A DNA stretch of 64,000 bases from Microbacterium sp. Nx66 (GTDB lineage Bacteria; Actinomycetota; Actinomycetes; Actinomycetales; Microbacteriaceae), in NCBI RefSeq assembly GCF_904066215.1, contig NZ_LR880474.1, positions 1,674,001 to 1,738,000 of the forward strand, in the 5' to 3' direction. Of the stretch, positions 52,235 to 64,000 are shown piece by piece. Under the pieces are notes generated by a model that was not told the DNA's origin, searched no databases, and worked only from the letters and a program-made list of their open reading frames with translations. Positions within the stretch are counted from its first letter, which is position 1, and the number at the start of each line of letters is the position of its first letter. The position numbers were made by a program, and so were the translations under genes.

Positions 52235-54592
52235 ATGACCGCTGCCGAGCACCCCGCGGACACCCACGATCTCATCCGTGTGCAGGGCGCGCGCGAGAAC
52301 AACCTCAAGGACGTGAGCGTCGACATCCCGAAACGACGCCTCACGGTGTTCACCGGGGTCTCGGGTTCCGGAAAGAGCTCTCTCGTCTTCGACACGATCG
52401 CCGCCGAATCGCGCCGGATGATCGACGAGACGTACAGCGCCTTCGTGCAGGGCTTCATGCCGTCCGTCCCTCGACCCGACGTCGACGTGCTGGAAGGCCT
52501 CACCACGGCGATCATCGTGGACCAGGAGCGCCTCGGCGCGAATCCGCGGTCCACCGTCGGCACGGTGACGGATGCCAATGCGATGCTCCGCATCCTGTTC
52601 AGCAAGCTCGGACAGCCCTACATCGGCGGGCCGACGGCGTTCTCGTTCAACATCCCGACGCAGAAGGCCAGCGGAGTGATGACCGGGCCGGGCGGGGAGA
52701 AGAAGATCGTGAAGGACGCGATCTACCTCGGCGGCATGTGCCCGCGATGTGAGGGCAGGGGAGTGGTGTCCGATCTCGACCTCTCGCAGATCGTCGATGA
52801 GTCGAAGTCCCTCGACGAGGGCGCGATCATGGTGCCCGGATACACCGCCGACGGCTGGATGGTGAAGGGGTTCTCGCAGTCCGGGTTCTACCCGCCGGAC
52901 AAGCCCATCGCGTCGTTCACCGACAAGCAGCGTCACCTCTTCCTCTACGGCGAGGTCACGAAGGTCAAGATCTCCGGTATCAACATGACCTACGAGGGCC
53001 TGATCCCGAAGATCACGAAGTCCATGCTCTCGAAAGACCTCGACGCGCTGCAGCCGCACATCCGCGCGTTCGTCGAGCGGGTGGCCACCTTCGCGGTGTG
53101 CCCGGAGTGCTACGGCTCGCGCCTCACCGAAGGCGCACGATCGTCCAAGATCGACGGTGTGAGCATCGCCGATGCCTGCCGCATGCAGGTGACGGACCTC
53201 GCCGCGTGGGTCAGGGGTCTCGACCTCCCCGGTGCGGGGCCCCTGCTCCAGGCGCTGAGCGCCAACCTCGACGCCTTCGTGACCCTCGGCCTGGGGTACC
53301 TGAGCCTGGATCGGCCCTCAGGGACGCTGTCCGGGGGAGAGGCGCAGCGGATCAAGATGCTGCGGCACCTCGGCTCCTCGCTGACCGACGTCACGTACGT
53401 GTTCGACGAGCCGACGATCGGGTTGCACCCGCACGACATCCAGCGGATGAATGGCCTGCTGCTCCGACTCCGCGACAAGGGGAACACGGTGCTCGTCGTC
53501 GAGCACAAGCCGGAGACCATCGCGATCGGCGATCATGTCGTGGATCTGGGGCCGGGTGCCGGAAGCGCCGGGGGAGAGATCTGCTATCAGGGGAGCGTCG
53601 AAGGCCTCACGGCCAGCGGAACGCTGACGGGGCAGCACCTCGACGACCGCGCGCAGCTCAAGGACGCCGTGCGTGACCGCACCGGCGCGATCGAAGTCCG
53701 CGGCGCCTCCACGAACAACCTCCAGAACGTGGACGTCGACATTCCGACCGGTGTCCTGACCGTGGTCACCGGCGTCGCGGGATCCGGGAAGAGCTCGCTC
53801 ATCCACGGTTCAGTGACCGGACGCGAGGGCGTGGTCGCGATCGACCAGTCCGCCATCAAGGGCTCGCGTCGCAGCAATCCCGCGACCTACACGGGGCTGC
53901 TCGAGCCCATCCGCAAGGCCTTCGCGAAGGCGAACGGAGTGAAGCCCGCCCTGTTCAGCGCGAACTCCGAGGGCGCGTGTCCCACGTGCAAGGGCGCCGG
54001 TGTCATCATCACCGAGCTCGGGTTCATGGACACGATCGAGACCCCCTGTGAGGACTGCGGCGGTAAGCGCTTCCAGGCGGCGGTGCTGGAGTACAAGCTC
54101 GGCGGCAAGGACATCACCGAGGTGCTCGACCTTCCGGTGTCCGAGGCCCGCGTGTTCTTCAGCGAGGGCGAGGCGAAGCTCCCGGCCGCGGCGGCCATCC
54201 TCGGACGCCTGGAGGACGTGGGGCTCGGCTACCTGTCGCTCGGACAGCCGTTGTCGACCCTGTCGGGCGGTGAGCGCCAGCGCATCAAACTCGCGATCCA
54301 GATGGGCGAGAAGGGCGACGTCTACGTGTTGGACGAGCCGACGACCGGCCTGCATCTCGCCGACGTGGACACGATCCTCGGTCTGTTGGATCGACTTGTC
54401 GACGCGGGCAAGACGGTGGTGGTGATCGAGCATCATCAGGCGGTCATGGCGCACGCCGATTGGATCATCGACGTCGGACCGGGAGCCGGCCACGACGGTG
54501 GTCGCATCGTGTTCCAGGGAACGCCTGCCGAGCTCGTCGCAGACGGGTCGACGCTGACGGGTGAGCATCTCGCGGCGTACGTCAACGCATGA
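52235..54592 (+). CDS. UvrA-like ABC ATPase (drug-resistance type)
   Basis: 785 residues, shorter than repair UvrA (about 950). Two ABC units: Walker A GVSGSGKSSL at 41-50 and GVAGSGKSSL at 513-522, signatures LSGGE at 365-369 and 676-680. Cys pairs in CPRCEGRG and CPECYG, and in CPTCKGAG and CEDCGGKR, mark zinc sites. The insertion and UvrB-binding domains seem reduced, as in the DrrC/UvrA-like proteins that release DNA-bound drugs. Only an AraC and a VOC gene accompany it. Its 3' end is partly copied at 55341-55518. GAAGG is eight bases upstream. Confidence 0.88.
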   Translation: MTAAEHPADTHDLIRVQGARENNLKDVSVDIPKRRLTVFTGVSGSGKSSLVFDTIAAESRRMIDETYSAFVQGFMPSVPRPDVDVLEGLTTAIIVDQERLGANPRSTVGTVTDANAMLRILFSKLGQPYIGGPTAFSFNIPTQKASGVMTGPGGEKKIVKDAIYLGGMCPRCEGRGVVSDLDLSQIVDESKSLDEGAIMVPGYTADGWMVKGFSQSGFYPPDKPIASFTDKQRHLFLYGEVTKVKISGINMTYEGLIPKITKSMLSKDLDALQPHIRAFVERVATFAVCPECYGSRLTEGARSSKIDGVSIADACRMQVTDLAAWVRGLDLPGAGPLLQALSANLDAFVTLGLGYLSLDRPSGTLSGGEAQRIKMLRHLGSSLTDVTYVFDEPTIGLHPHDIQRMNGLLLRLRDKGNTVLVVEHKPETIAIGDHVVDLGPGAGSAGGEICYQGSVEGLTASGTLTGQHLDDRAQLKDAVRDRTGAIEVRGASTNNLQNVDVDIPTGVLTVVTGVAGSGKSSLIHGSVTGREGVVAIDQSAIKGSRRSNPATYTGLLEPIRKAFAKANGVKPALFSANSEGACPTCKGAGVIITELGFMDTIETPCEDCGGKRFQAAVLEYKLGGKDITEVLDLPVSEARVFFSEGEAKLPAAAAILGRLEDVGLGYLSLGQPLSTLSGGERQRIKLAIQMGEKGDVYVLDEPTTGLHLADVDTILGLLDRLVDAGKTVVVIEHHQAVMAHADWIIDVGPGAGHDGGRIVFQGTPAELVADGSTLTGEHLAAYVNA

Positions 54593-54669
54593 TCGAGGGC
54601 CGCGGTGGCGGAATCTCCATCCTCTCTCGAAAGAACTCAGGCGCCGACCCAAGCACTGCTGGAGAACAC

Positions 54670-55221
54670 ATGACGACCTACGACCAGCTTCTGGAGTCAG
54701 CGCGCGAACACTACAACGTGCCCGCCATGCCTCTGGTGGACGACGTAGCCTCCTTCCTCGTCTCACTAGGCGCTACGCCACTGGATCTTGATCGGTACGG
54801 CGAGGATCTGATCGATGAGTTCGTGGATCCCGAACTCGCGATCGTCGCCTTCACGCTGCGCGCACCGCAGCTGCTGCGTCAGCGTGCGAGCTCCGAAGAA
54901 CTCGAGAACTTCGCCTCGGACTCATCCTCAGAGTTCGACCCGCTCGAGTACGGAGAAGCCAACGAAGAGTGGACCGTGTACTCCCACGAGATCGAGGAGT
55001 TGTCACGCATCCACGTCGTGCTGGAGCGCGCTGACCACACGGCTGAACGCGTCGGTAACTTTCGAGTCTATGGAGGCGCGCAGTGGCTGCGCGAAATGCT
55101 CTGGGCCGCTACAGGCGTGGTGCCCCGAGATCCCGGCTCTCCCACGAGTGGCTCCACGCTCTTCGGACGGGCGTTCCAGTTCGCGGATCGAGCGCCGTTC
55201 ACTGCGGCGCCTCTCGTATGA
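54670..55221 (+). CDS. hypothetical protein, orphan, 183 residues
   Basis: Not recognised. The sequence is acidic (rich in Glu and Asp) with no signal, membrane helix or catalytic motif. It starts MTTYDQLLESAREHYN, and CTGGAGAACAC precedes the ATG. It lies between the UvrA-like gene and a rearranged copy of that gene's 3' end, so it is probably inserted cargo. Base composition is less GC-rich than the neighbours on the left. Its partner and role are unknown; a small antitoxin or immunity role is only a guess. Confidence 0.55.
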   Translation: MTTYDQLLESAREHYNVPAMPLVDDVASFLVSLGATPLDLDRYGEDLIDEFVDPELAIVAFTLRAPQLLRQRASSEELENFASDSSSEFDPLEYGEANEEWTVYSHEIEELSRIHVVLERADHTAERVGNFRVYGGAQWLREMLWAATGVVPRDPGSPTSGSTLFGRAFQFADRAPFTAAPLV

Positions 55222-55340
55222 CATACGGTGGCGTCGGCCGCGCAGCCCGTGCTGCGTGGGTTATCGCTCGCGCGTTCCGAGAAGCGTCTGGTCGTGACCT
55301 CTCGACCACAGAAGCGGATTCGAGCTGAGCGGCTGAGCCC

Positions 55341-55518
55341 AAGCTCGGCGGCAAGGACATCACCGAGGTGCTCTACCTTCCGGTGTCCGAGGCCCGCGTG
55401 TCCTGGGAACGCCGTCCGAGCCCGTCGCTGACGGGTCGACGTTGACGGGCGAACATCTCGCGGCGTACGTCAACGCATGATCGAGGGCCACGGGGGCGCC
55501 TTTCCCACCCTCTCTCGT
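55341..55518 (+). pseudogene. rearranged duplicate of the UvrA-like gene 3' end
   Basis: 55341-55400 copies 54095-54154 (59 of 60 bases). 55401-55518 then copies 54513-54630 with about 85-90% identity, including the final codons (AAYVNA), the stop and the flank after it. The 358 bases between the two source blocks are missing. The reading frame is broken. This is the scar of duplication or of recombination with a related copy. Confidence 0.85.
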
Positions 55519-55539
55519 CCTGCCAGATCCCGTATACGG

Positions 55540-55552
55540 ATTATCCGATAAT
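55540..55552. promoter_or_regulatory. palindrome ATTATC-C-GATAAT in AT-rich leader
   Basis: Perfect 6-1-6 palindrome in an unusually AT-rich stretch between the duplicate and the SDR fragment. It resembles an operator left from the lost SDR promoter. The word CGGATTAT-x-CG recurs at 55763-55773. Confidence 0.3.
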
Positions 55553-55769
55553 GCACATTATGTCAGATTGAGGACGACATATTCTCGCAATACGCGAACT
55601 GGCCGGTCTCATCACACTCCCCGCGAGTCCGGAGCCAGCACGGGATCGACCACGTCGACGACCACAGGGTGAGGTTGCAGTCGTCATGCTACGCGGACTC
55701 CATGAGAAGGCAAGGTTTACTCATAAACGAGTGATCAGATGGTCCTGAGTTGCGTTACATCGCGGATTA

Positions 55770-55987
55770 TGCGAACTCGCTGCAGCCGGCTACACCGTCG
55801 CCCTCGTCGCCCGCCGCCTGAACCGCATCACCGCCCTCGCGGAGGAACTCAGCTGCGGCGCGATCGCGATCGAAGCCGACGTCACCGACCGCGACTCCAT
55901 CGTCGCGGCTGCCGCCCGCGTCCAGGATGAGCTCGGAGGGGCTGGTGTCCTGGTCAACAACGCCGGCATCATGCTGCTGGGTCCGAG
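55770..55987 (+). pseudogene. fragment of a short-chain dehydrogenase, cut at both ends
   Basis: Frame reading (from 55782) AAGYTVALVARRLNRITALAEEL, then EADVTDRDSIVAAAARVQDELGG and VLVNNAGIMLLGP is the middle of a classical SDR. The Rossmann glycine motif on the left and the YxxxK half on the right are absent. The right break coincides with the end of the minus-strand HEPN-like gene, whose stop codon lies inside this fragment. High GC and codon use fit the host, unlike the genes to the right. Confidence 0.75.
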
Positions 55988-57330
55988 TCTTCGATCTCGG
56001 CTTCGAGCTCAGATTCCTCGATCTCGGTGGACAAGAAGCCGCGAACCAGGTCGCCGTACTCTCGGATACGCGGGTCAGTCCTCAAGGGAGCGGTCAGCGG
56101 CCATGTCGCCAGCGCGGCACCAGACAACTTGTCACGTTCTACGAGACCTGGAAGCTGAGCGAACGCGGCATCTAGGTCTCCGAGGATGCATGCTTTCGCA
56201 AAAACATAGAGCTCGTCGACACCAGTGACGTCCCACTCCTCCACGTCTCGGCGAATTGCGTCCAGACCGAACAGGCCTTTCTGAGCGAGCCAAGTGTTGA
56301 CGAGGGTGATTAGGCGCTTCTCGTTCGACAGAGGCAATTCTCCACACCGTTCGAAGAGCGGCAACGCGAAGGCCCACCGCCCTGTGCTGAGTGCTCCGAA
56401 CGCGACCCTCTGAAGCTGTGTGAATATGTCATCCGCGTTCTTGGTGAACTTGTGCCAGACCGACGCTTGCAGAAGTGTCCCCATGACTTCCAGAGCATCG
56501 ATGGCGTGTGTTACATAGTCGCGATCCGGCCGCAAGTCCGACTTGATTTCAGAGGAGCCCGTGACCTTGACGTATCGGTGCGACGCTTGGCCTTCGCTGT
56601 GCACAAGGCAGTGGCGTCGCTCAAAGATCTCCAACAACTGCTCCCATGTGGTGCCTTGATCGGCCAGATCTATGCTCATCCGGTCTTTGAAGAATTTTCG
56701 CCAGTCGGAGAGGCTGCCGAAGCTGAGCTTGTTAACTCGTGAGTCGATAGCGGCTTCGATCGCCTGATCGATCGAACCCAGCGTCTGAAGGTCCTTCAAA
56801 GAAAACTCTTTGAGCGCCTCTTTAGGGACGTCATGCAGCGCTGCTGGCGCCGCGCGGTAGTAGTTCTCGGCTAGCTGCCCGAGATGAGCTTCCAGGCTGG
56901 CAACGGCGCTGATCAGCAGCGCGCCATGGAAGATCGGTTCTCGTCGAGGCCGGTAGAACTTAGCCATCGTTGCGGTGGCAAAGGCGGGCCCCCAGGCATC
57001 ATCAGAGGTGACGTCCCAAAGTGCGTCGAGCAACTTGCGAGCGGTGAACGCATCCTTGGGTATCGAGCGGATACGGGCTACAACGCGTTGCTTGTCTTCA
57101 CTGCTGATCTCGACGCCAGCCGGCAGGTTGTCCCAGATTGAGCCAAAGTGGTCGAGATTGGCAGCAGCTTTCGAAAGCTCGGTGTGAGTCTCCCGCAGTG
57201 CGTCGAATCTGTCAGTGAACTCAGTTCCCGTGACCCAGAAGCGCTGATCGAGTGACCGCACCCGCTCTTCCCGTGTAGCTGCATCTACGGTGTCGGGGTT
57301 GACGTCAGCACCGGGCTCATCAGTCTTCAT
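55969..57330 (-). CDS. HEPN-like protein with R-x4-H motif
   Basis: 453 residues, no signal or membrane segments, mostly helical. In a segment of Glu/Phe/Arg pattern LLEIFERRHCLVHSEG the residues Arg239 and His244 form the R-x4-H motif of HEPN RNases, followed by Gly as in many members. The N-terminal 120 residues and the C-terminal 170 residues are not recognised. The last few residues are encoded by the broken SDR sequence, so the native C-terminus was probably lost or replaced. TAGATT seven bases before the ATG suggests a leaderless mRNA. The role is unknown; HEPN proteins often cut RNA in defence or toxin systems. Confidence 0.6.
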   Translation of the reverse strand: MKTDEPGADVNPDTVDAATREERVRSLDQRFWVTGTEFTDRFDALRETHTELSKAAANLDHFGSIWDNLPAGVEISSEDKQRVVARIRSIPKDAFTARKLLDALWDVTSDDAWGPAFATATMAKFYRPRREPIFHGALLISAVASLEAHLGQLAENYYRAAPAALHDVPKEALKEFSLKDLQTLGSIDQAIEAAIDSRVNKLSFGSLSDWRKFFKDRMSIDLADQGTTWEQLLEIFERRHCLVHSEGQASHRYVKVTGSSEIKSDLRPDRDYVTHAIDALEVMGTLLQASVWHKFTKNADDIFTQLQRVAFGALSTGRWAFALPLFERCGELPLSNEKRLITLVNTWLAQKGLFGLDAIRRDVEEWDVTGVDELYVFAKACILGDLDAAFAQLPGLVERDKLSGAALATWPLTAPLRTDPRIREYGDLVRGFLSTEIEESELEAEIEDSDPAA

Positions 57331-57710
57331 AGACCGAAATCTAGCGGAACTCGCAGGTGCCGGTGGCGGACGGCTGGCGATCTCGATGGTCGGAGCGGCG
57401 GCAGACGGAGGTGTGGATGCGGGCTCACGACGCCCGATCTAGGAGCGCACCACAACGACGAGCGAAATTCGGCGCGGCGGGATTGCCAACGGACGCGTTC
57501 AGCCACCATCGGTGGGAAGCCCTCCTCCGAGTGCCGTCGCTGCGCAATCGGAGTGAGCAGAAGTGTGCACAACGAAGAACAAGCATCGTACAGAACCAGG
57601 AGGCCGCAACACCTGGCAAGGTAGGTGGCAAGGGCCGGATGCGGTGATCGTCTCGCATTCGACTGCCTGCGGCCGGGTATCCGCGCTACATCACGCATCG
57701 AGAGGAAACT
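57331..57710. other. divergent gap between HEPN-like and DUF6414-like genes
   Basis: 380 bases without a supported gene. It holds the leaderless -10 box of the HEPN-like gene (57338-57343, minus). Near the right end are the AGAGGAAACT ribosome site of the DUF6414-like gene and a possible -10 TACATC about 30 bases before its start. No repeats or hairpins of note. Confidence 0.5.
57338..57343 (-). promoter_or_regulatory. -10 box TAGATT, leaderless start of HEPN-like gene
   Basis: On the minus strand TAGATT is followed by seven bases and the ATG at 57330. Confidence 0.45.
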
Positions 57711-58475
57711 ATGTCGAAGAGTCTGCGACCCGCACGCCTCGTGAAGATCGTCTACTTCGACGAAGAGTCAGCATCTGACCTGCTTGACATCACAGCAGGC
57801 GGCCGGGAGGTCTCCTCAACCGAGCACATCCAGGAACGTGCAAAGGAAGCACACGCAAATGCGGATGCGGCGCTATCGGCGAGGTTGAAATGGCTCTCGT
57901 TCTTCGGTGCATCTGCCGAGGTCGCGGCTGGCGTGAAGGGGTCGGCAGTCGGGCGAAACATCTTGAACAAGACAATCTCGAACACCATTCTTACCGACTA
58001 CCTCGACAAGAGTGTCGACATCGAGGGTGTCGCGCGTCTCGAGGGACTGCGCGTAACGGCGAGCAACAAGTCAGCGGCGTACATGAAGATGTACGCCCCC
58101 TACATGTCCATGCTCAAGCTAGAGGACGCACCGATTAGCCTCAACGGACTAAGCGAGATGCTGGCGACGGCCAAAGGCTACTATGAGCTGCTCGCTCGAG
58201 ACAACCATGGGACGGCGCGAATCCTCCGCTTCAACATCAACGCGTTCCGCAACAGTTATGGACTCGTCGATCTGGCCCGAATGAATCTTGTCTTCGACGC
58301 AGTGCGGGTCGGCAGCGCCAGCGAGGGAAGTCTCACGATGGAAGCCGAGATGGCGCCTAGCGATGCCTCAACGCTGCCATCCGTTGAACGACTCGTGGGT
58401 AGAGCCGAGATCAACGACACGGCCGAGCTGGACGTCTACGACGTCATCCTCGCGGGGGTCATGCATGGGAGCTGA
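57711..58475 (+). CDS. DUF6414-like protein
   Basis: 254 residues, cytosolic. It starts SKSLRPARLVKIVYFDEESASDLLDITAGGRE; the YFDEESAxDLL..GG segment is like DUF6414 proteins, which are uncharacterised and often sit near ATPase genes. The middle has an Ala/Gly stretch FFGASAEVAAGVKGSAVGRN (65-84) that could be a loop or weak membrane-active segment. The end TAELDVYDVILAGVMHGS is coupled: the AAA+ gene starts inside it. The function is unknown. AGAGGAAACT precedes the ATG. Confidence 0.6.
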   Translation: MSKSLRPARLVKIVYFDEESASDLLDITAGGREVSSTEHIQERAKEAHANADAALSARLKWLSFFGASAEVAAGVKGSAVGRNILNKTISNTILTDYLDKSVDIEGVARLEGLRVTASNKSAAYMKMYAPYMSMLKLEDAPISLNGLSEMLATAKGYYELLARDNHGTARILRFNINAFRNSYGLVDLARMNLVFDAVRVGSASEGSLTMEAEMAPSDASTLPSVERLVGRAEINDTAELDVYDVILAGVMHGS

Positions 58476-59613
58476 CGTGGCGGTGACGGCCTATTACGGA
58501 CCGAGCGAGTGGTTTGGCGAACGGGTCAAGCCAACACGCAAAGAGAGCTTGCGGGAGGCAGTTAACGCTCATGACGACGAGAGGAATCAAACTGTTCACA
58601 TCCACCACGTACCTGGTCAGGAGCCTCCGCGGGTCAAGCCGAAGAAGAGGAAGCGACCCCAGCGGCTCGTAGCGGACTCAGGTGACTACGCCAGTCTCAA
58701 CGAGCATGTCATAACAAATTTCTCGTGGCTGGCTAGAGCACTGAACCCGAAAGAGTTACATCTCCACAACCCGCCTGAACAAGTCAAAGCGCAACTCGAA
58801 AAAACATTCCCGAACTCCTTCCGCGTAGAGCGGTACTCCTACCCCATGGTGACATTGGAGACCCTGCGCGCTTTCCGGGACCACTTCGGAGAACACCTGG
58901 TCGGTCAAGCGCAGGTCCGGGACGCAATGCTCCGCGCGATGTACCCTCTGACTAGAGCGAGGCGCAACAGGCCGGTTGTCGTGATGTTCTACGGCCCGTC
59001 CGGTGTCGGCAAGACAGAGACGGCAAAGTTTATCAACGACCTGCTGCAAGGTTCTCTGATGCGGACTCAGTTCTCAATGTTCCAGAACGACTCATTCGCC
59101 TCCTACCTGTTTGGGGGTAAGCACTCCGAACGCTCATTTGCCCACGAACTCATCGATCGAGATTCTGGTGTCATCCTTATCGACGAGTTCGACAAAGCGG
59201 CAAGCGTGTTCCACAGCGCCTTCTACGAGTTGTTCGATGAAGGTGTCTTTACGGATAAAAACTATCGAGCTGACGTCGGTCGGGCTATCATCATCTGCAC
59301 GTCGAACTATGATTCAGAGGCGGAAATCCGCCGGGCCCTTGGGGAGGCGCTGTCTTCGCGTTTCGATGCAATGATTCAGTTCACGCACCTGTCCAGACAT
59401 GAGGCGATCACGGTGGTGGAGCGCCAGATCACCCGGCGGCTGGGCGAGTTGGAGCCTGACGAACTGGCCCTTGTCGCCGGCGTCGATTTCGAGGACATGC
59501 TCCGCTCTCTTGCTGAGCATGCGGGGAACATTCGAGAAGTCGGCAAGAGAGTCGACGCGGTTATCGCTGACGAACTGGTGCACCGTTCCCTCGCTGACAC
59601 ACAACGCGGGTGA
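58465..59613 (+). CDS. single-module Clp-type AAA+ ATPase
   Basis: 382 residues. A novel N-terminal part (1-150), with Lys-rich KPKKRKRPQR near 56, is followed by an AAA+ domain like ClpB/ClpA module 2. It has HLVGQAQVRDAMLRAM near 147, Walker A GPSGVGKT at 177-184, Walker B VILIDEFDKA with Asp240-Glu241, sensor ICTSN with Asn281, and arginine finger in SSRFD at Arg299. There is no ClpP-docking loop. Start ATG 58465 lies inside the DUF6414-like gene, GGGGG seven bases ahead; a GTG further on is possible. TTA and AAA codons suggest transfer. Likely unfolds or remodels its coupled partner; inference. Confidence 0.75.
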   Translation: MGADVAVTAYYGPSEWFGERVKPTRKESLREAVNAHDDERNQTVHIHHVPGQEPPRVKPKKRKRPQRLVADSGDYASLNEHVITNFSWLARALNPKELHLHNPPEQVKAQLEKTFPNSFRVERYSYPMVTLETLRAFRDHFGEHLVGQAQVRDAMLRAMYPLTRARRNRPVVVMFYGPSGVGKTETAKFINDLLQGSLMRTQFSMFQNDSFASYLFGGKHSERSFAHELIDRDSGVILIDEFDKAASVFHSAFYELFDEGVFTDKNYRADVGRAIIICTSNYDSEAEIRRALGEALSSRFDAMIQFTHLSRHEAITVVERQITRRLGELEPDELALVAGVDFEDMLRSLAEHAGNIREVGKRVDAVIADELVHRSLADTQRG

Positions 59614-59868
59614 AGTCGTCGTCCACATTGTTCAGGCGACGAGATGCCGAACCGCAGAGCTGGAGCATGTTGCCGACTCGTCGTCGGCAGAGCTCAACTC
59701 GCTCGCGTGGCGCCCGCCCAAGAACGCGCCGGAACTCATTTCCGCAGGGCCCGGGCTGGTGGCGGCGTCGCGACTCGTCGAACGCTGTTTGACGGCCCCA
59801 TTGCCTCGGTCCCTGCTGGCAAGTTCGAGCTGCGCGGGCGCTCGTGCCCTGCTGGTGCGATCTACCGA
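59614..59868. other. gap between converging AAA+ and RES genes
   Basis: 255 bases with no supported gene, no clear terminator hairpin and no repeat. Confidence 0.4.
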
Positions 59869-61131
59869 CTATCGCGGCTGGAGCCTGATTTGCTGCACCC
59901 GAACGCTACGCACCACGGCGTGCGCCGACACAGCCTCCGGGGTGATGGTGAGTGTCGCGCGTTGGCTACCGCCAAGCTTGGCTGACATGGCGAGGTCCCG
60001 ACGTTCGTCTGGCGTGGGAGGCGAGGACACCACGTCAGCACCCGGAGGAACAAAAAGAACGACATTCTTGCCGCCTTTGCTGGCACGGGATGGAAATGCA
60101 ATTCCGTCAATCCGTCGGTCAGGAACCCAGCGTAGGTACTCGGTGACGACCTGTGTCGGTATATAGTCCACTCGCTCTCTCCCGTCAAGAGCTATCGGCC
60201 GGGTCAAGGCTTTCACGAAATCGTCGGCGAACTCAGCGAAGGCTCGACGCTCCTGTCGCATAATGTCGAACACGCTAGGTAGCCGCGGGGTGCGGGTGAA
60301 ATCGAGGATAGTCAGCGGACGCTGAACGACGAACTCTCCGATGACTGCCACGTCATACGGCGAATGCAGCGCAATCTCCGCCACCGCAGTATGAAGGTCG
60401 TCTGCGCCGTAGAACAGTGGTACTCCTTCGCCGCTCATTCGGCCAGCAGCGGCGCGGTCGGGCGGCGCGGATCCCAATACTTTGCTGGGGGCCGCGACGG
60501 CCTCGGCCACCAGCTTGTCTAGATCGGCCGTCATCCGACCCCGATATAGTTTCGAACCGACCTCCAACACGTGCAGCATTCGCGTGCTCTTGTCTGCGTA
60601 GGCAAGCAACCCATCCAAGAACCTAGAGAGACGAGCGGGCGGCTCGTGCTCGCCACCATCCCGGGCGTTGGCAACGAAGACGAATCGCGCTTCGTGACGA
60701 ACGGTTTCTGTGAACTGCTCCCACGAGTACGCGAACTGCGTCTGGGCGTCTTTCTCGAACCAGGACTCTGGCCAGACGATTGCTCTGCTAATCGCCGCCA
60801 GAGCCCGCTCGCTTACCGAGTGTTCGAACGCACCGTCAGCGATATCGGCGACAACCTCCGAGGTCTCCAGCTCAGTTTCGTACGCCTCGCCTTCAAAAAA
60901 TGAAGCCCCGTCGAAACTCTGGAAGTGATTTAGGGCGGCCCGATACACCTGCTGAACGACAGCATCGATCGGCACGGCGAATGGCGCATCTCTGGCGGAT
61001 CCAACGAGGCCACAGAATGAGCACTCGGTTCTGGTGGCCGAGTCTTGAACCCGCCGACGTAGCGCAGAGTCCGTGATGTGACCTATGCATAGTGACTCCA
61101 GTGACGGCCGCAGAGAGTTGCTGTCCAACAT
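59869..61131 (-). CDS. RES-domain protein with N-terminal Cys/His cluster (HEPN/RES-like)
   Basis: 420 residues. N-terminus SLESLCIGHITD...TECSFCG has Cys15, His18, Cys37 and Cys40, a probable metal site; the following helical region is the HEPN/RES N-terminal type of RES proteins. The RES domain (about 185-400) shows the Arg in LYRGR (Arg197), Tyr241 in LFYGADD, and Glu252 in AVAEIALHSP; a Ser in IAFPSRAS completes the usual set. RES toxins degrade NAD. No Xre-type antitoxin is adjacent. ATG 61131 is preceded by TAGCAT-N7, a leaderless pattern; ATG 61176 is an alternative adding 15 residues. Confidence 0.8.
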   Translation of the reverse strand: MLDSNSLRPSLESLCIGHITDSALRRRVQDSATRTECSFCGLVGSARDAPFAVPIDAVVQQVYRAALNHFQSFDGASFFEGEAYETELETSEVVADIADGAFEHSVSERALAAISRAIVWPESWFEKDAQTQFAYSWEQFTETVRHEARFVFVANARDGGEHEPPARLSRFLDGLLAYADKSTRMLHVLEVGSKLYRGRMTADLDKLVAEAVAAPSKVLGSAPPDRAAAGRMSGEGVPLFYGADDLHTAVAEIALHSPYDVAVIGEFVVQRPLTILDFTRTPRLPSVFDIMRQERRAFAEFADDFVKALTRPIALDGRERVDYIPTQVVTEYLRWVPDRRIDGIAFPSRASKGGKNVVLFVPPGADVVSSPPTPDERRDLAMSAKLGGSQRATLTITPEAVSAHAVVRSVRVQQIRLQPR

Positions 61132-61490
61132 GGTGCTGATGCTAGCGAGTTTCAACGCTGCGAGCCGCAGCTCCATTCTCCAACCTAGGGTCAGCCGCCG
61201 CTCTGCGGTCCATATCTGAGCGAGGGGGCGCGTCGCTCCGCTCGGCAGTTTACTCGGTTCTCGAGTACCCGATGAGCGGGGAACTGGGGACGCGAGTGCA
61301 AGGCTATGGCGGTGTGTCCGGGCAGGAGGGAAGGTCATGGCGACTCGAGTGGCAGCGCTCGGCTTCGCAAACGCTGACGTCAGACAACGATTACGCCGGT
61401 CTCGAATAAGCCGTGTAACCAGTAGAGGAAAGTGGCCCTCTCCTGAGTCGCCGGCCGCGGTGACACGGGTGGATGCTGCATGATGGGCCT
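61132..61490. other. gap between RES gene and lipoprotein gene
   Basis: 359 bases. It holds the minus-strand -10 box TAGCAT (61139-61144) of the RES gene. A 48-residue frame at 61337-61483 has a strong ribosome site GGAGGGAAGGTC but is Arg-rich and unsupported. The GC rise here marks the right end of the island. Confidence 0.45.
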
Positions 61491-62012
61491 GTGCCCACCC
61501 GTCCATCCCCTCGGAATCGCGGCCGCGTCGGTGCGCTCGCGTTCTTGACCGCATTCACGCTCTCGTTGGCGGCGTGCGGGACGTCGGACTACAGCCTGAC
61601 GGAGGCCGATGCGTACGGGACATGGCGGGCGGGAAGCGACCTGCCGACGACGCTCGAGCTCGCTGAGGACGGTACCTTCCAGGCGACTGCGTGGCCACGG
61701 GATGTGGGGTGCGGTGGGAGTCCGCCGCGCACCGCGGTGGAGCTGCGCGGGGCAGATGCCGTTGACTTCTCCGGGACCTGGGAAGAGGGTTCAGGCGGCG
61801 CTCTGAATGAGATCACGCTGGCCACGGATCCGGATTCACCGTGCGGGACGACCTGGATCTACGCCGGTTTCCGAAGCGAAGACAGCGTCCTCTATACCTG
61901 CATGCTCCTGGATGTGCACGTCGACGAGGCGACGGCGGCAAACTGGTTCATCCTCTACAAGGGTGAGCCGGAGTCGACGCCGGACTCGAGTCGGTGCTTC
62001 AACTACAACTAG
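61491..62012 (+). CDS. small lipoprotein of unknown function
   Basis: 173 residues. Signal with lipobox LSLAACG, lipidated Cys29. The mature part is beta-rich with GTWRAGSDLPTTLELAEDGTFQATAW near 45, similar to lipocalin-like or extracellular small beta-barrel proteins. Four mature Cys may form disulfides (CGG, CGTT, YTCM, RCF). The GTG at 61491 lies after CATGAT-N6, a leaderless-like box; ATG 61473 is an alternative. It converges on the amidase gene. Ligand unknown. Confidence 0.7.
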   Translation: MPTRPSPRNRGRVGALAFLTAFTLSLAACGTSDYSLTEADAYGTWRAGSDLPTTLELAEDGTFQATAWPRDVGCGGSPPRTAVELRGADAVDFSGTWEEGSGGALNEITLATDPDSPCGTTWIYAGFRSEDSVLYTCMLLDVHVDEATAANWFILYKGEPESTPDSSRCFNYN

Positions 62013-62027
62013 CCCGCTCCCGTGCCG

Positions 62028-62816
62028 TCACCGTGACTCCCTCCGGATCTCCTCCGCCCGCGCCACGATGTCATCCACTCGCGATTGGAGGAACGGACCG
62101 GGACACTCCGTTCCCGACCATGTCTCCTGGTGGGTGATGACGTGCTCTCGGTCGATCCGGAAGCGCACCGGAACGCCGTCCAGGGTCCGGCCGTCGAAGC
62201 CTGCGAGCCACGCGATCATCTGCGCGATCTCCTCCACCTGCGCGGTGGTCACCGTGTACTCCGGGGCTCCGGTGAAATCCAGCGTCTCCACCGCCACGGA
62301 CCGCCAGTTCCAGTCCGCGCCGGTGGACGACGGCTTCGCTCCCGGGCGGATGGTCTCGATGACCGATCCGTCGTGTCGCAGATAGAAGGTGGGAGCCGAT
62401 GATCTCCGGTTGCAGCGGGAGAAGAACTCCAACTGGTCGGAAGTCGTGCCGGTGTGGTGGATGATGAAGCGGTCGATGACAGGGCTCACGGTTCGGCGAT
62501 CACTCCCCGCGATGCTGCGGTCGGCGCGAACCGTGGGATCGGCACAGTCCTCGAAACCGAGCGGTACCTCGAGACCCGTGACCGCGCGGTCGTAGACCGG
62601 CTCATACTCGGGCAACCCTCGGGGATTGTCCGGGCGGCGTCCGGTGTCGTCTGCCTCTCCCCCGGAGTTCGCGGAGAGCCAGATGCCGACGCCGGTCACC
62701 GCGACGCCGGTTCCGGCAGCGATGAGGAATCCCCGCCGCGTCTGCGTCGGGACGTGCTCATCGGCGTCCCGTGCTCCCGGGTCCTCCGGATGCTGACCCT
62801 CCCCGCGTGTGCTCAC
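62028..62816 (-). CDS. Tat-exported N-acetylmuramoyl-L-alanine amidase-like protein
   Basis: 262 residues. Twin-arginine signal TRRGFLIAAGTGVAVTGVGIWLSA with Arg27-Arg28. The catalytic domain is PGRP/amidase-2 type: FIIHHTGTTSD with the first zinc His near 111, YLRHDGSVIET, then REHVITHQETWSGTECPGP near 228 with second His and zinc Cys. It should cleave peptidoglycan stem peptides at the cell surface. The GTG at 62816 overlaps the next gene upstream (GTGA), so they are co-transcribed. Confidence 0.85.
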   Translation of the reverse strand: MSTRGEGQHPEDPGARDADEHVPTQTRRGFLIAAGTGVAVTGVGIWLSANSGGEADDTGRRPDNPRGLPEYEPVYDRAVTGLEVPLGFEDCADPTVRADRSIAGSDRRTVSPVIDRFIIHHTGTTSDQLEFFSRCNRRSSAPTFYLRHDGSVIETIRPGAKPSSTGADWNWRSVAVETLDFTGAPEYTVTTAQVEEIAQMIAWLAGFDGRTLDGVPVRFRIDREHVITHQETWSGTECPGPFLQSRVDDIVARAEEIRRESR

Positions 62817-63319
62817 GCGGCCTGGTCGTCGTCTCGGGGTGCTCGGGACTCTCGCGGCCGGCGTCGCCCTGGCCAGACGAAATGCGCGACCGAGAAGGCG
62901 AGGACCGTCCACGAGATGACGAACGCCCACCATGGGGACGCCGCTCCCCCGCTTCCGCCCGCCAGCACGACCGACACGATGCAGGCGCCGAGTCCGACGA
63001 CGACCCCGAGGACGGTGATCTCGCCATGGGCGAGCCACCGCGCGCGCAGCGCCGAGACGAGGCGAAGGGGCAGGCCGACCACCAGGGCGGTGATCATCGA
63101 CACGACGGACAGCACGACGGCCATGATGCTCGCCCCGATGAAGGACGTCACCCCGTCGTACTCATCCGCAGCACCGAGTGCGAGGAAGAAAGCCACGATG
63201 AACAGGAAAAAGCCACCGACGAAGAACTGGCCGAGGATGAGCGAGGCGGTCGATTCATCCGCTCCTCGAAAGCCCCCGCGTTTCCGCAGGTCTGCAGGGA
63301 CACGGCGAGGGGAGGTCAT
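62813..63319 (-). CDS. four-helix membrane protein
   Basis: 168 residues. Four hydrophobic helices (about 30-48, 60-84, 103-122, 128-150), a Pro/Arg N-terminus and a charged C-terminus RRRPRESRAPRDDD. No family recognised. It is coupled to the amidase, so it may be involved in its secretion or regulation; that is only context. It is divergent from the membrane gene at 63462. Confidence 0.65.
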   Translation of the reverse strand: MTSPRRVPADLRKRGGFRGADESTASLILGQFFVGGFFLFIVAFFLALGAADEYDGVTSFIGASIMAVVLSVVSMITALVVGLPLRLVSALRARWLAHGEITVLGVVVGLGACIVSVVLAGGSGGAASPWWAFVISWTVLAFSVAHFVWPGRRRPRESRAPRDDDQAA

Positions 63320-63461
63320 ATCGCGATCCTACGAGGTGCACGCCTTCGCTGGGAGCGCACTCGCGCTACTCTCATCCTCAGGGACAGGCACATTTGGGCC
63401 GCGGCTGGATCGATGGGGCCTGATCCTCCGCCTGCAGTCTGGGGAGAGGTGGGGCGAGCGG

Positions 63462-64000
63462 ATGGGCGCTGGCGATGAGAAGGGCGAAGGGCTGCTGACG
63501 CCCATCGTGGTGGGCGTGGCGCTGGCGATGTTCAGCGCAGCGGTGGCGGTGGCTTCGACATTCCTGATCGCGGATCCTCGAATCGGCGTTCTGGCGGCAA
63601 TGACGCTGTCTTTCGGATGCGTCGGAGCGGCGGCCGGCCTCCTGCTCACCAGGCGAAGGACCTGGGGCGACCCCTCGTGGCCTCCAGGCACGGAGCCGAA
63701 GCCCTGGACGGCCCGCCGCTCCCGTCGGGTCGTCTTGCTCTACGGAGTCTTCCTTCTCCTCATCTCCGTGGGTGGGGTTGTCACACTGGCGGGGACGGAT
63801 CAGAACGAGACCGACGACCCGCTGCGCGGATGGGTGCTGTCCACCGTGTTCGGTGTGGTGGGCATGACGCTGATCATCAGAGGAGTGCGGCGGCAGCCTC
63901 AACCGGTGCACTCGTCCGATCGCCCGGAGAGCGAGCCGAACGTCGACGTGCAGGAGTGGATGCCGTTGGGGCCCTCTCGTTCGCGGGCTCTCTTCCCCTG
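63462..64000 (+). CDS. membrane protein, cut by the window end
   Basis: Open from ATG 63462 to the edge, 179 codons so far. Four hydrophobic helices (about 11-36, 43-62, 92-112, 124-140), separated by Arg/Trp-rich loops such as RRRTWGDPSWPPG; a Pro/Ser tail follows. No family recognised. GGGGCGAGCGG precedes the ATG. Probably a single gene that shares the divergent promoter region with 62813-63319. Confidence 0.6.
   Translation, partial: MGAGDEKGEGLLTPIVVGVALAMFSAAVAVASTFLIADPRIGVLAAMTLSFGCVGAAAGLLLTRRRTWGDPSWPPGTEPKPWTARRSRRVVLLYGVFLLLISVGGVVTLAGTDQNETDDPLRGWVLSTVFGVVGMTLIIRGVRRQPQPVHSSDRPESEPNVDVQEWMPLGPSRSRALFP

Follow-up and report, generated by a model that had tools for sequence, protein, structure and literature searches.

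A Probable Defense Mini-Island With a Dodola Gene Pair Beside the Predicted dif Site of Microbacterium sp. Nx66

Introduction

In the chromosome of Microbacterium sp. Nx66, four accessory genes (A to D) lie next to each other, and the question raised by this locus is whether they work together as one system or are neighbors that act independently. The analyzed stretch of DNA, referred to as the window, comprises 64,000 nucleotides (nt; positions 1,674,001–1,738,000 of a 3.42-Mb contig), and the four-gene block occupies its positions 55969-61131. All positions given below are those of the window; loci and genomes used for comparison are numbered with L and G. The following features were assigned to the block (lengths in amino acids, aa):

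55969..57330, − strand: gene A, lone HEPN-type protein, 453 aa (open reading frame, ORF; motif and profile match; C-terminal half helical)
56599-56616, − strand: RHCLVH motif of gene A, residues 239-244 (alignment)
57711..58475, + strand: gene B, dolA (DUF6414), 254 aa (PADLOC DolA 1e-69; Pfam DUF6414 3.1e-30)
58465..59613, + strand: gene C, dolB, single-module Clp/AAA+ (AAA_2) ATPase, 382 aa (PADLOC DolB 4.2e-127)
59869..61131, − strand: gene D, N-terminal CxxH/CxxC (zinc-ribbon-like), HEPN/RES-NTD1 and RES, 420 aa (Pfam, fold match)

A first-pass annotation of this DNA had proposed that the four genes form one system, with neighboring modules as its fallback. The analysis favors the latter: the block is very probably an accessory defense mini-island of three independent modules, namely the anti-phage pair Dodola (B and C), the lone HEPN-type protein A and the RES-type protein D. 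The domain calls of that annotation hold: an RHCLVH motif was found in A, DUF6414 in B, a single-module AAA_2/Clp-type ATPase in C, and RES with HEPN_RES_NTD1 in D. Its statement that the gene set was not recognized is half wrong, as the DUF6414/Clp pair is the known Dodola.

Results and Discussion

Genes B and C Match the Anti-Phage System Dodola

The GC content of A, B, C and D was determined to be 0.583, 0.588, 0.570 and 0.603, respectively. This confirms the lower GC reported before, with 0.57–0.60 compared to 0.696 for positions 1-54592 (about 0.70 to the left) and 0.677 for positions 62028-64000. The divergent genes A (−) and B (+) are separated by 380 base pairs (bp) and the convergent genes C (+) and D (−) by 255 bp. 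Because A and B diverge, C and D converge and the strands alternate, the layout points to three transcription units (A, B-C and D).

On B, Pfam DUF6414 scored 106.3 bits (cut-off 25). The ATG of dolB, which lies directly downstream on the same strand, overlaps the end of dolA (58465-58475). What we take to be the Walker A and Walker B motifs of dolB were located at 58993-59019 and 59170-59193, and the best sequence match of DolB in the PDB was ClpA (7.6e-14). On these sequence grounds, B and C are identified as the known two-gene anti-phage system Dodola. In the accessible part of PMC12322248, cloned Dodola protected against every streptococcal phage tested in one study, and its mechanism was listed as unknown in 2025. 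Protection against phages may, by analogy, be expected from the DolAB pair of the window.

Genes A and D Do Not Travel With Dodola

For the co-occurrence analysis, 50 other Dodola loci were taken from genome_contigs, and their ORFs of at least 60 aa, called with a simple script and not with a gene finder, were searched with profiles of A and D (E <0.01). Within the DNA covered per locus, neither profile matched in any of the 50 loci. In 49 of them dolB follows dolA, and in L059 the contig ends before dolB.

Among 398 Microbacteriaceae genomes, DolA was detected in 4 (a small sample for this protein), A in 5, including 3 weak matches, and D in 23. The window's own genome is the only one in which DolA occurs together with A or D. 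In genome G132, D lies 184 kb from a weak match to A (27% over 231 residues). At the genus level, A was present in 4 of 247 genomes; the other three A-bearing genomes contained neither DolA nor HEPN_RES_NTD1, the DolA model having its matches in the family search as positive control. In viral_contigs, 33 stretches for A and 41 for DolA matched a pattern, none of which was confirmed as a relative. No A was found in plasmid records; DolA was present in 17 of these, all from Bacillota, and in one phage-collection record without annotation. In the four of the 17 plasmid regions that were read (gene table incomplete), dolA-dolB stand without an overlapping third gene. The proposal of one system thus fails the co-occurrence check (50 Dodola loci, 398 family genomes, 247 genus genomes), and neighboring modules are what these data support.

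Several points weigh against three independent defense modules. About 10 kb on both sides were covered for no more than 30 of the 50 loci, and the D profile ran in this search without a positive control. The closest relatives of DolA (91%, 85% and 78% identical) are known here as proteins without their gene context, so that a rare lineage with linked genes may exist. One insert (see below) contains A, B, C, D and the gene at 61473, which could mean a single arrival. Finally, a second study reported a minimal effect of Dodola on its test phages, according to the accessible part of PMC11514479, where an AlphaFold description of the system is also given.

A Third Gene Is Coupled to dolB in Many Actinobacterial Loci

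In 14 of the 29 actinobacterial Dodola loci (L029-L057), an ORF of at least 120 aa starts at offset -3 from the dolB end, i.e., within the stop codon. The overlap is ATGA in 13 cases and GTGA in one. None of 20 further loci with a dolB end has such a coupled gene (only 37 bp are left in L066; L059 was excluded). The third gene was assigned to GajA, followed by GajB (L034, L035, L037, L038), PDC-S06 (L029, L032, L041, L045, L046), Ymh (L033, L040), ApeA_NTD1 (L056) and TIR (L039), and L054 shows a GajA-like start in a broken frame, assigned from its first residues only. PADLOC was used for L029, L032 and L037, tblastn to these (73-93% identity) for the other GajA and PDC-S06 genes, and Pfam for Ymh, ApeA and TIR. 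Two of the 14 loci are damaged: dolB of L033 is in two frames, and L054 has dolA in two pieces besides the broken GajA-like gene. The same four letters are found at the dolB end in 3 of the 15 loci without a coupled gene (ATGA in L051, GTGA in L052 and L055), which is chance or decay. In addition, a broken Dodola copy with dolB in two frames was seen in L058.

PMC3710099 (accessible part) counts both Ymh and ApeA among the HEPN families. An R-N-x3-H motif was identified in both Ymh proteins, and none was found with the same pattern in the ApeA-type protein. The first-pass annotation had joined HEPN and NAD-degrading effectors with the DUF6414/Clp pair. This gains indirect support from other genomes, in which Ymh-HEPN, ApeA-type and TIR genes overlap the dolB stop; these genes are not detectably related to A or D.

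Upstream of dolA, genes of type III restriction-modification (R-M) systems were found directly adjacent and on the same strand in L029, L032, L037, L038 and L041, and those of type I systems in L045 and L046. In metagenomes, R-M genes outside defense islands were described to prefer co-localization with Dodola genes (PMC10924106, accessible part). A gene of the RhuM family (L036), of the Cap15-receptor type (L040) and of the BsuBI/PstI restriction-enzyme type (L055) was also seen to end close to the dolA start on the same strand.

In a tree of the quick type calculated from DolA and DolB, with long branches flagged for L055, L060, L061 and L064, the 14 rows require at least 8 changes of third-gene state, the minimum for five states being 4. 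L029 (PDC-S06) and L038 (Gabija) are sisters with a support of 90, and their DolA and DolB proteins are each 92% identical. The overlap and the exchange suggest that the third gene may be functionally coupled. In the Actinobacteria, DolAB may be a sensor/ATPase core driving interchangeable effectors and not the killer itself, with the third gene delivering the blow, and we rate the chances of this as about even. The plain alternative is that genes pile up in a defense island. No description of a coupled third gene of Dodola was found in the literature by a search that reached few subscription journals.

Other arrangements were observed as well. DolA and DolB are fused in one open frame in L006:1471-3456 and at the same place in L090. 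In Bacillota, an annotated Abi-family gene stands 146 bp after dolB in L108, one of the four plasmid regions read, and Abi-like (L072), SIR2-like (L073) and DUF262-like (L074) genes, named by eye, follow dolB without overlap.

The dolB gene of the window has GTGA at its end as well, but the frame after it is short and the next gene is convergent. A remnant of a third gene was not detected either: none of the 11 third-gene proteins finds a relative at 55001-62500 (best E 0.35). The four genes could still be one system in trans, if the window's DolAB lost or never had its third gene and A and/or D, expressed from promoters of their own, take the part of the effector. The third genes of the 14 actinobacterial loci do include two Ymh-HEPN, one ApeA-type and one TIR gene, and the window's DolAB groups with loci carrying Ymh (L033), an ApeA-type gene (L056) or no third gene (L030); this group has a support of 92, is not starred and has no resolution inside. 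On the other hand, A and D lie on the strand opposite to dolAB, they were not found in the DNA covered around the 50 other Dodola loci, their relatives occur without DolA, and the 11 third-gene proteins have no relative around the block. A system in trans is therefore considered highly improbable, and the combined view, in which DolAB is an effector-driving core and the HEPN and/or RES gene serves it in trans in this island, is regarded as quite unlikely. The most fitting reading of the window's Dodola is a plain two-gene system with two independent neighbors.

Gene A Encodes a Putative HEPN-Type RNase

Residues R239, H240 and H244 of A are invariant in all 11 aligned rows, and RHCLVH satisfies the Rx4-6H motif of the HEPN superfamily. 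The Pfam family HEPN_RiboL-PSP (PF18735) was matched by 8 of the 11 members of the A family at E <=0.01 (best 3.8e-7). The predicted structure is all-helical (predicted local distance difference test, pLDDT, 79). Two results speak against the assignment: A itself reaches only E 5e-4 and 20.4 bits with this profile, under the curated cut-off of 28.4 bits, and a comparison of the model of A with known structures gave no distinct match to a solved HEPN structure. Taken together, A is a putative HEPN-type RNase.

The homologues of A were taken from the matches listed among 7997 scored candidates, and among these a Microbacterium murale record carries a relative with 71% identity. In the genomes searched, the nearest other A is that of G488 (73% identity). 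There, A is located at 0.2 Mb and dif at 3.74 Mb of a 4.1-Mb contig, far apart from each other.

Gene D Encodes a RES-Type Protein

Pfam identified RES (1.3e-20; 74.5 bits, cut-off 23.2) and HEPN_RES_NTD1 (1.0e-12) in D. The fold matches are the RES toxins MbcT, NatT, ParT and RES-Xre. C15, C37, C40, R199, Y241 and E252 are invariant in 21 of 21 rows; the conserved Arg, Tyr and Glu of RES (R199, Y241 and E252 in D) are presumably the catalytic residues. The start at 61131 is favored by most aligned homologues; it is uncertain, as the frame is open to 61554 and the database copy has 489 aa. Breakdown of NAD+ by RES became known later than a proposal of 2013, which took it for a potential RNase, and D would accordingly degrade NAD+. 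The architecture Zn ribbon, HEPN/RES-NTD1 and RES was described in 2013 by Anantharaman, and RES is taken there as a potential RNase present in various toxin systems (PMC3710099, accessible part).

It was also considered that A and D might be toxins acting alone, or addiction genes, that have no role in defense and merely share an insertion hot spot with Dodola. RES is best known from toxin-antitoxin pairs, and both the fold matches of D and the 2013 description of RES fit this. However, no recognized antitoxin was found by A or D among the two flanking accessory genes and 10 ORFs of 82-255 aa, although antitoxins of an unknown kind or of smaller size may exist. No recognized Xre-type antitoxin was found beside D among these: D is flanked by dolB and by a gene that matched nothing in Pfam, and the 10 further ORFs around A and D gave no Pfam match. 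Moreover, among seven relatives of D that were read (L079-L085, from the matches listed among 7991 scored candidates), a SIR2-type protein adjoins in 2, which also argues against solo toxins. This explanation is judged unlikely. The neighbors of the seven relatives vary, which is a further point against one four-gene system. The SIR2-type neighbors are large (L080:7719-11246, with a Dsr1-like N-terminal match; L082:2904-5957, with an LmuA/ThsA-like match).

The likelihoods stated for the explanations should not be read as mutually exclusive; the rivals on solo toxins and on XerCD (see below) overlap with the preferred explanation of three independent modules, the former in all but the role of A and D.

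An Amidase Gene and the Predicted dif Site Border the Insert

The surroundings of the block contain the following features:

52235..54592, + strand: uvrA-like gene, left neighbor of dif (90-93% identical in relatives)
54589..55221, + strand: accessory gene that matches nothing in Pfam, located to the left of dif and not part of the insert (own genome only among 59)
55335..55517, + strand: decayed duplicate of two segments from the 3′ part of the uvrA-like gene (repeats)
55541..55568, + strand: predicted chromosomal dif site, left edge of the insert (similarity to Frankia alni dif)
61473..62012, + strand: accessory gene that belongs to the insert; Pfam gave no match, and by eye the product resembles a lipoprotein (in 2 of 59 genomes, counting the own one)
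62028..63038, − strand: Amidase_2 gene, right edge of the insert (Pfam 3.5e-11)

A 21-nt core, CCGATAATGCACATTATGTCA, is identical to the dif site of Frankia alni as quoted in the accessible part of PMC3025954, and 22 of 28 positions agree overall. By similarity, positions 55541-55568 are therefore predicted to be the chromosomal dif. With <=2 mismatches there is one copy in the own genome, located at 50.5% of the contig, and dif follows uvrA in all six fetched stretches that contain uvrA (L113, L115, L116, L123, L132, L133). The window would thus span the replication terminus region, with variable DNA directly to the right of dif.

Five stretches were fetched for the amidase (L112-L116) and one (L117) for the relative of the 61473 gene. 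In L113, L115 and L116 the site is empty: the amidase follows about 1 kb after uvrA, and none of the island genes, including the 61473 gene, is present. This kilobase holds an unrelated 281-aa ORF and the dif sequence; CGATAATGCACATTATGTCA, which stands at 55546-55565 in the window, is at most about 40 bp away from the amidase. The gene order left of uvrA is kept in all three, with no match to the gene at 51309 in L116. Since these relatives have almost nothing at this place, the approximately 6.5 kb between dif and the amidase (A to D and the 61473 gene) are an insert, in agreement with the accessory island proposed earlier.

The flanks had been described as host-type, which is valid in part, as the genes at 54589-55221 (1 of 59) and 61473-62012 (2 of 59) are rare in the genus and the amidase, at E 1e-20, was found in 6 of 99 genus genomes, own included. 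In two of the five other genomes (G419, G402) the amidase is apart from uvrA. L112 and L114 contain the amidase without uvrA or dif in the stretch; judged by the coordinates, the distance to uvrA is about 26 and 33 kb. No amidase match was seen in the stretches L132 and L133, in which uvrA is followed by dif. The decayed duplicate at 55335-55517 repeats 54089-54158 (94%) and 54513-54629 (86%); together with the accessory gene at 54589-55221, it shows that this spot was reshuffled more than once. DNA 78% similar to this accessory gene was seen in G507, on a different contig from its uvrA.

The position next to dif raises the possibility that the island carried a dif-like site of its own and was integrated by XerCD. 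The island does abut dif. The best other place at 55000-62200, though, agrees in 13 of 22 arm positions, which does not stand out from the remainder of the window; there is no second dif match with <=3 mismatches, and none of the insert's five genes was identified by Pfam as a recombinase. Integration by XerCD is thus considered very unlikely.

Proposed Scheme and Implications

Gene content, motifs, family membership, insertion site and lack of linkage were observed; the enzymatic activities, the triggers and a role of A and D in defense are inferred. A defense island of about 6.5 kb would have been acquired at the chromosome terminus, with dif on one side and the amidase gene on the other. 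In its first module, the one-ring Clp/AAA+ ATPase DolB and its partner DolA would jointly block phage growth. In the second, A may cut RNA at its RHxxxH site once triggered, and its helical C-terminal half may sense or hold A. In the third, the RES fold of D may break down NAD+ once the N-terminal part is triggered.

The window adds one further Dodola, located next to dif, and the stronger lead lies in its relatives. There, near-identical DolAB pairs are followed by unrelated defense-type genes at the same stop/start overlap, which provides a testable idea of Dodola action. If the coupling of the third gene is functional, DolAB would be an effector-neutral trigger.

Comparison With Known Systems

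Compared to the RES toxins MbcT, NatT and RES of P. putida, D has a long N-terminal part and no recognized Xre-type neighbor. The proteins described by Anantharaman in 2013 (PMC3710099, accessible part) have the same domain order as D, including some RES-fused members with an extra N-terminal Zn ribbon; no difference from D was seen, and the neighboring genes vary.

A resembles the HEPN proteins of the HEPN_RiboL-PSP/MAE_28990 type in the weak profile match over its HEPN part and in the invariant RHxxxH, and differs from them in the score under the Pfam cut-off, the helical C-terminal half and its solo occurrence.

Effectors of the PrrC/RloC type are found within R-M operons (PMC3710099, accessible part). 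Some actinobacterial DolAB cassettes are similarly located between an R-M system and an effector, whereas the DolAB of the window is not placed in this way.

The pair of the window differs from Dodola as described in that it belongs to an actinobacterial branch (39-40% identical to the Bacillota member L060), sits between two unrelated effectors and lacks the coupled third gene seen in 14 of the 29 loci from Actinobacteria. It agrees with Dodola (DolA with DUF6414 and a ClpB-like ATPase DolB) in the family models, the gene order, the strand and the overlap of the two genes.

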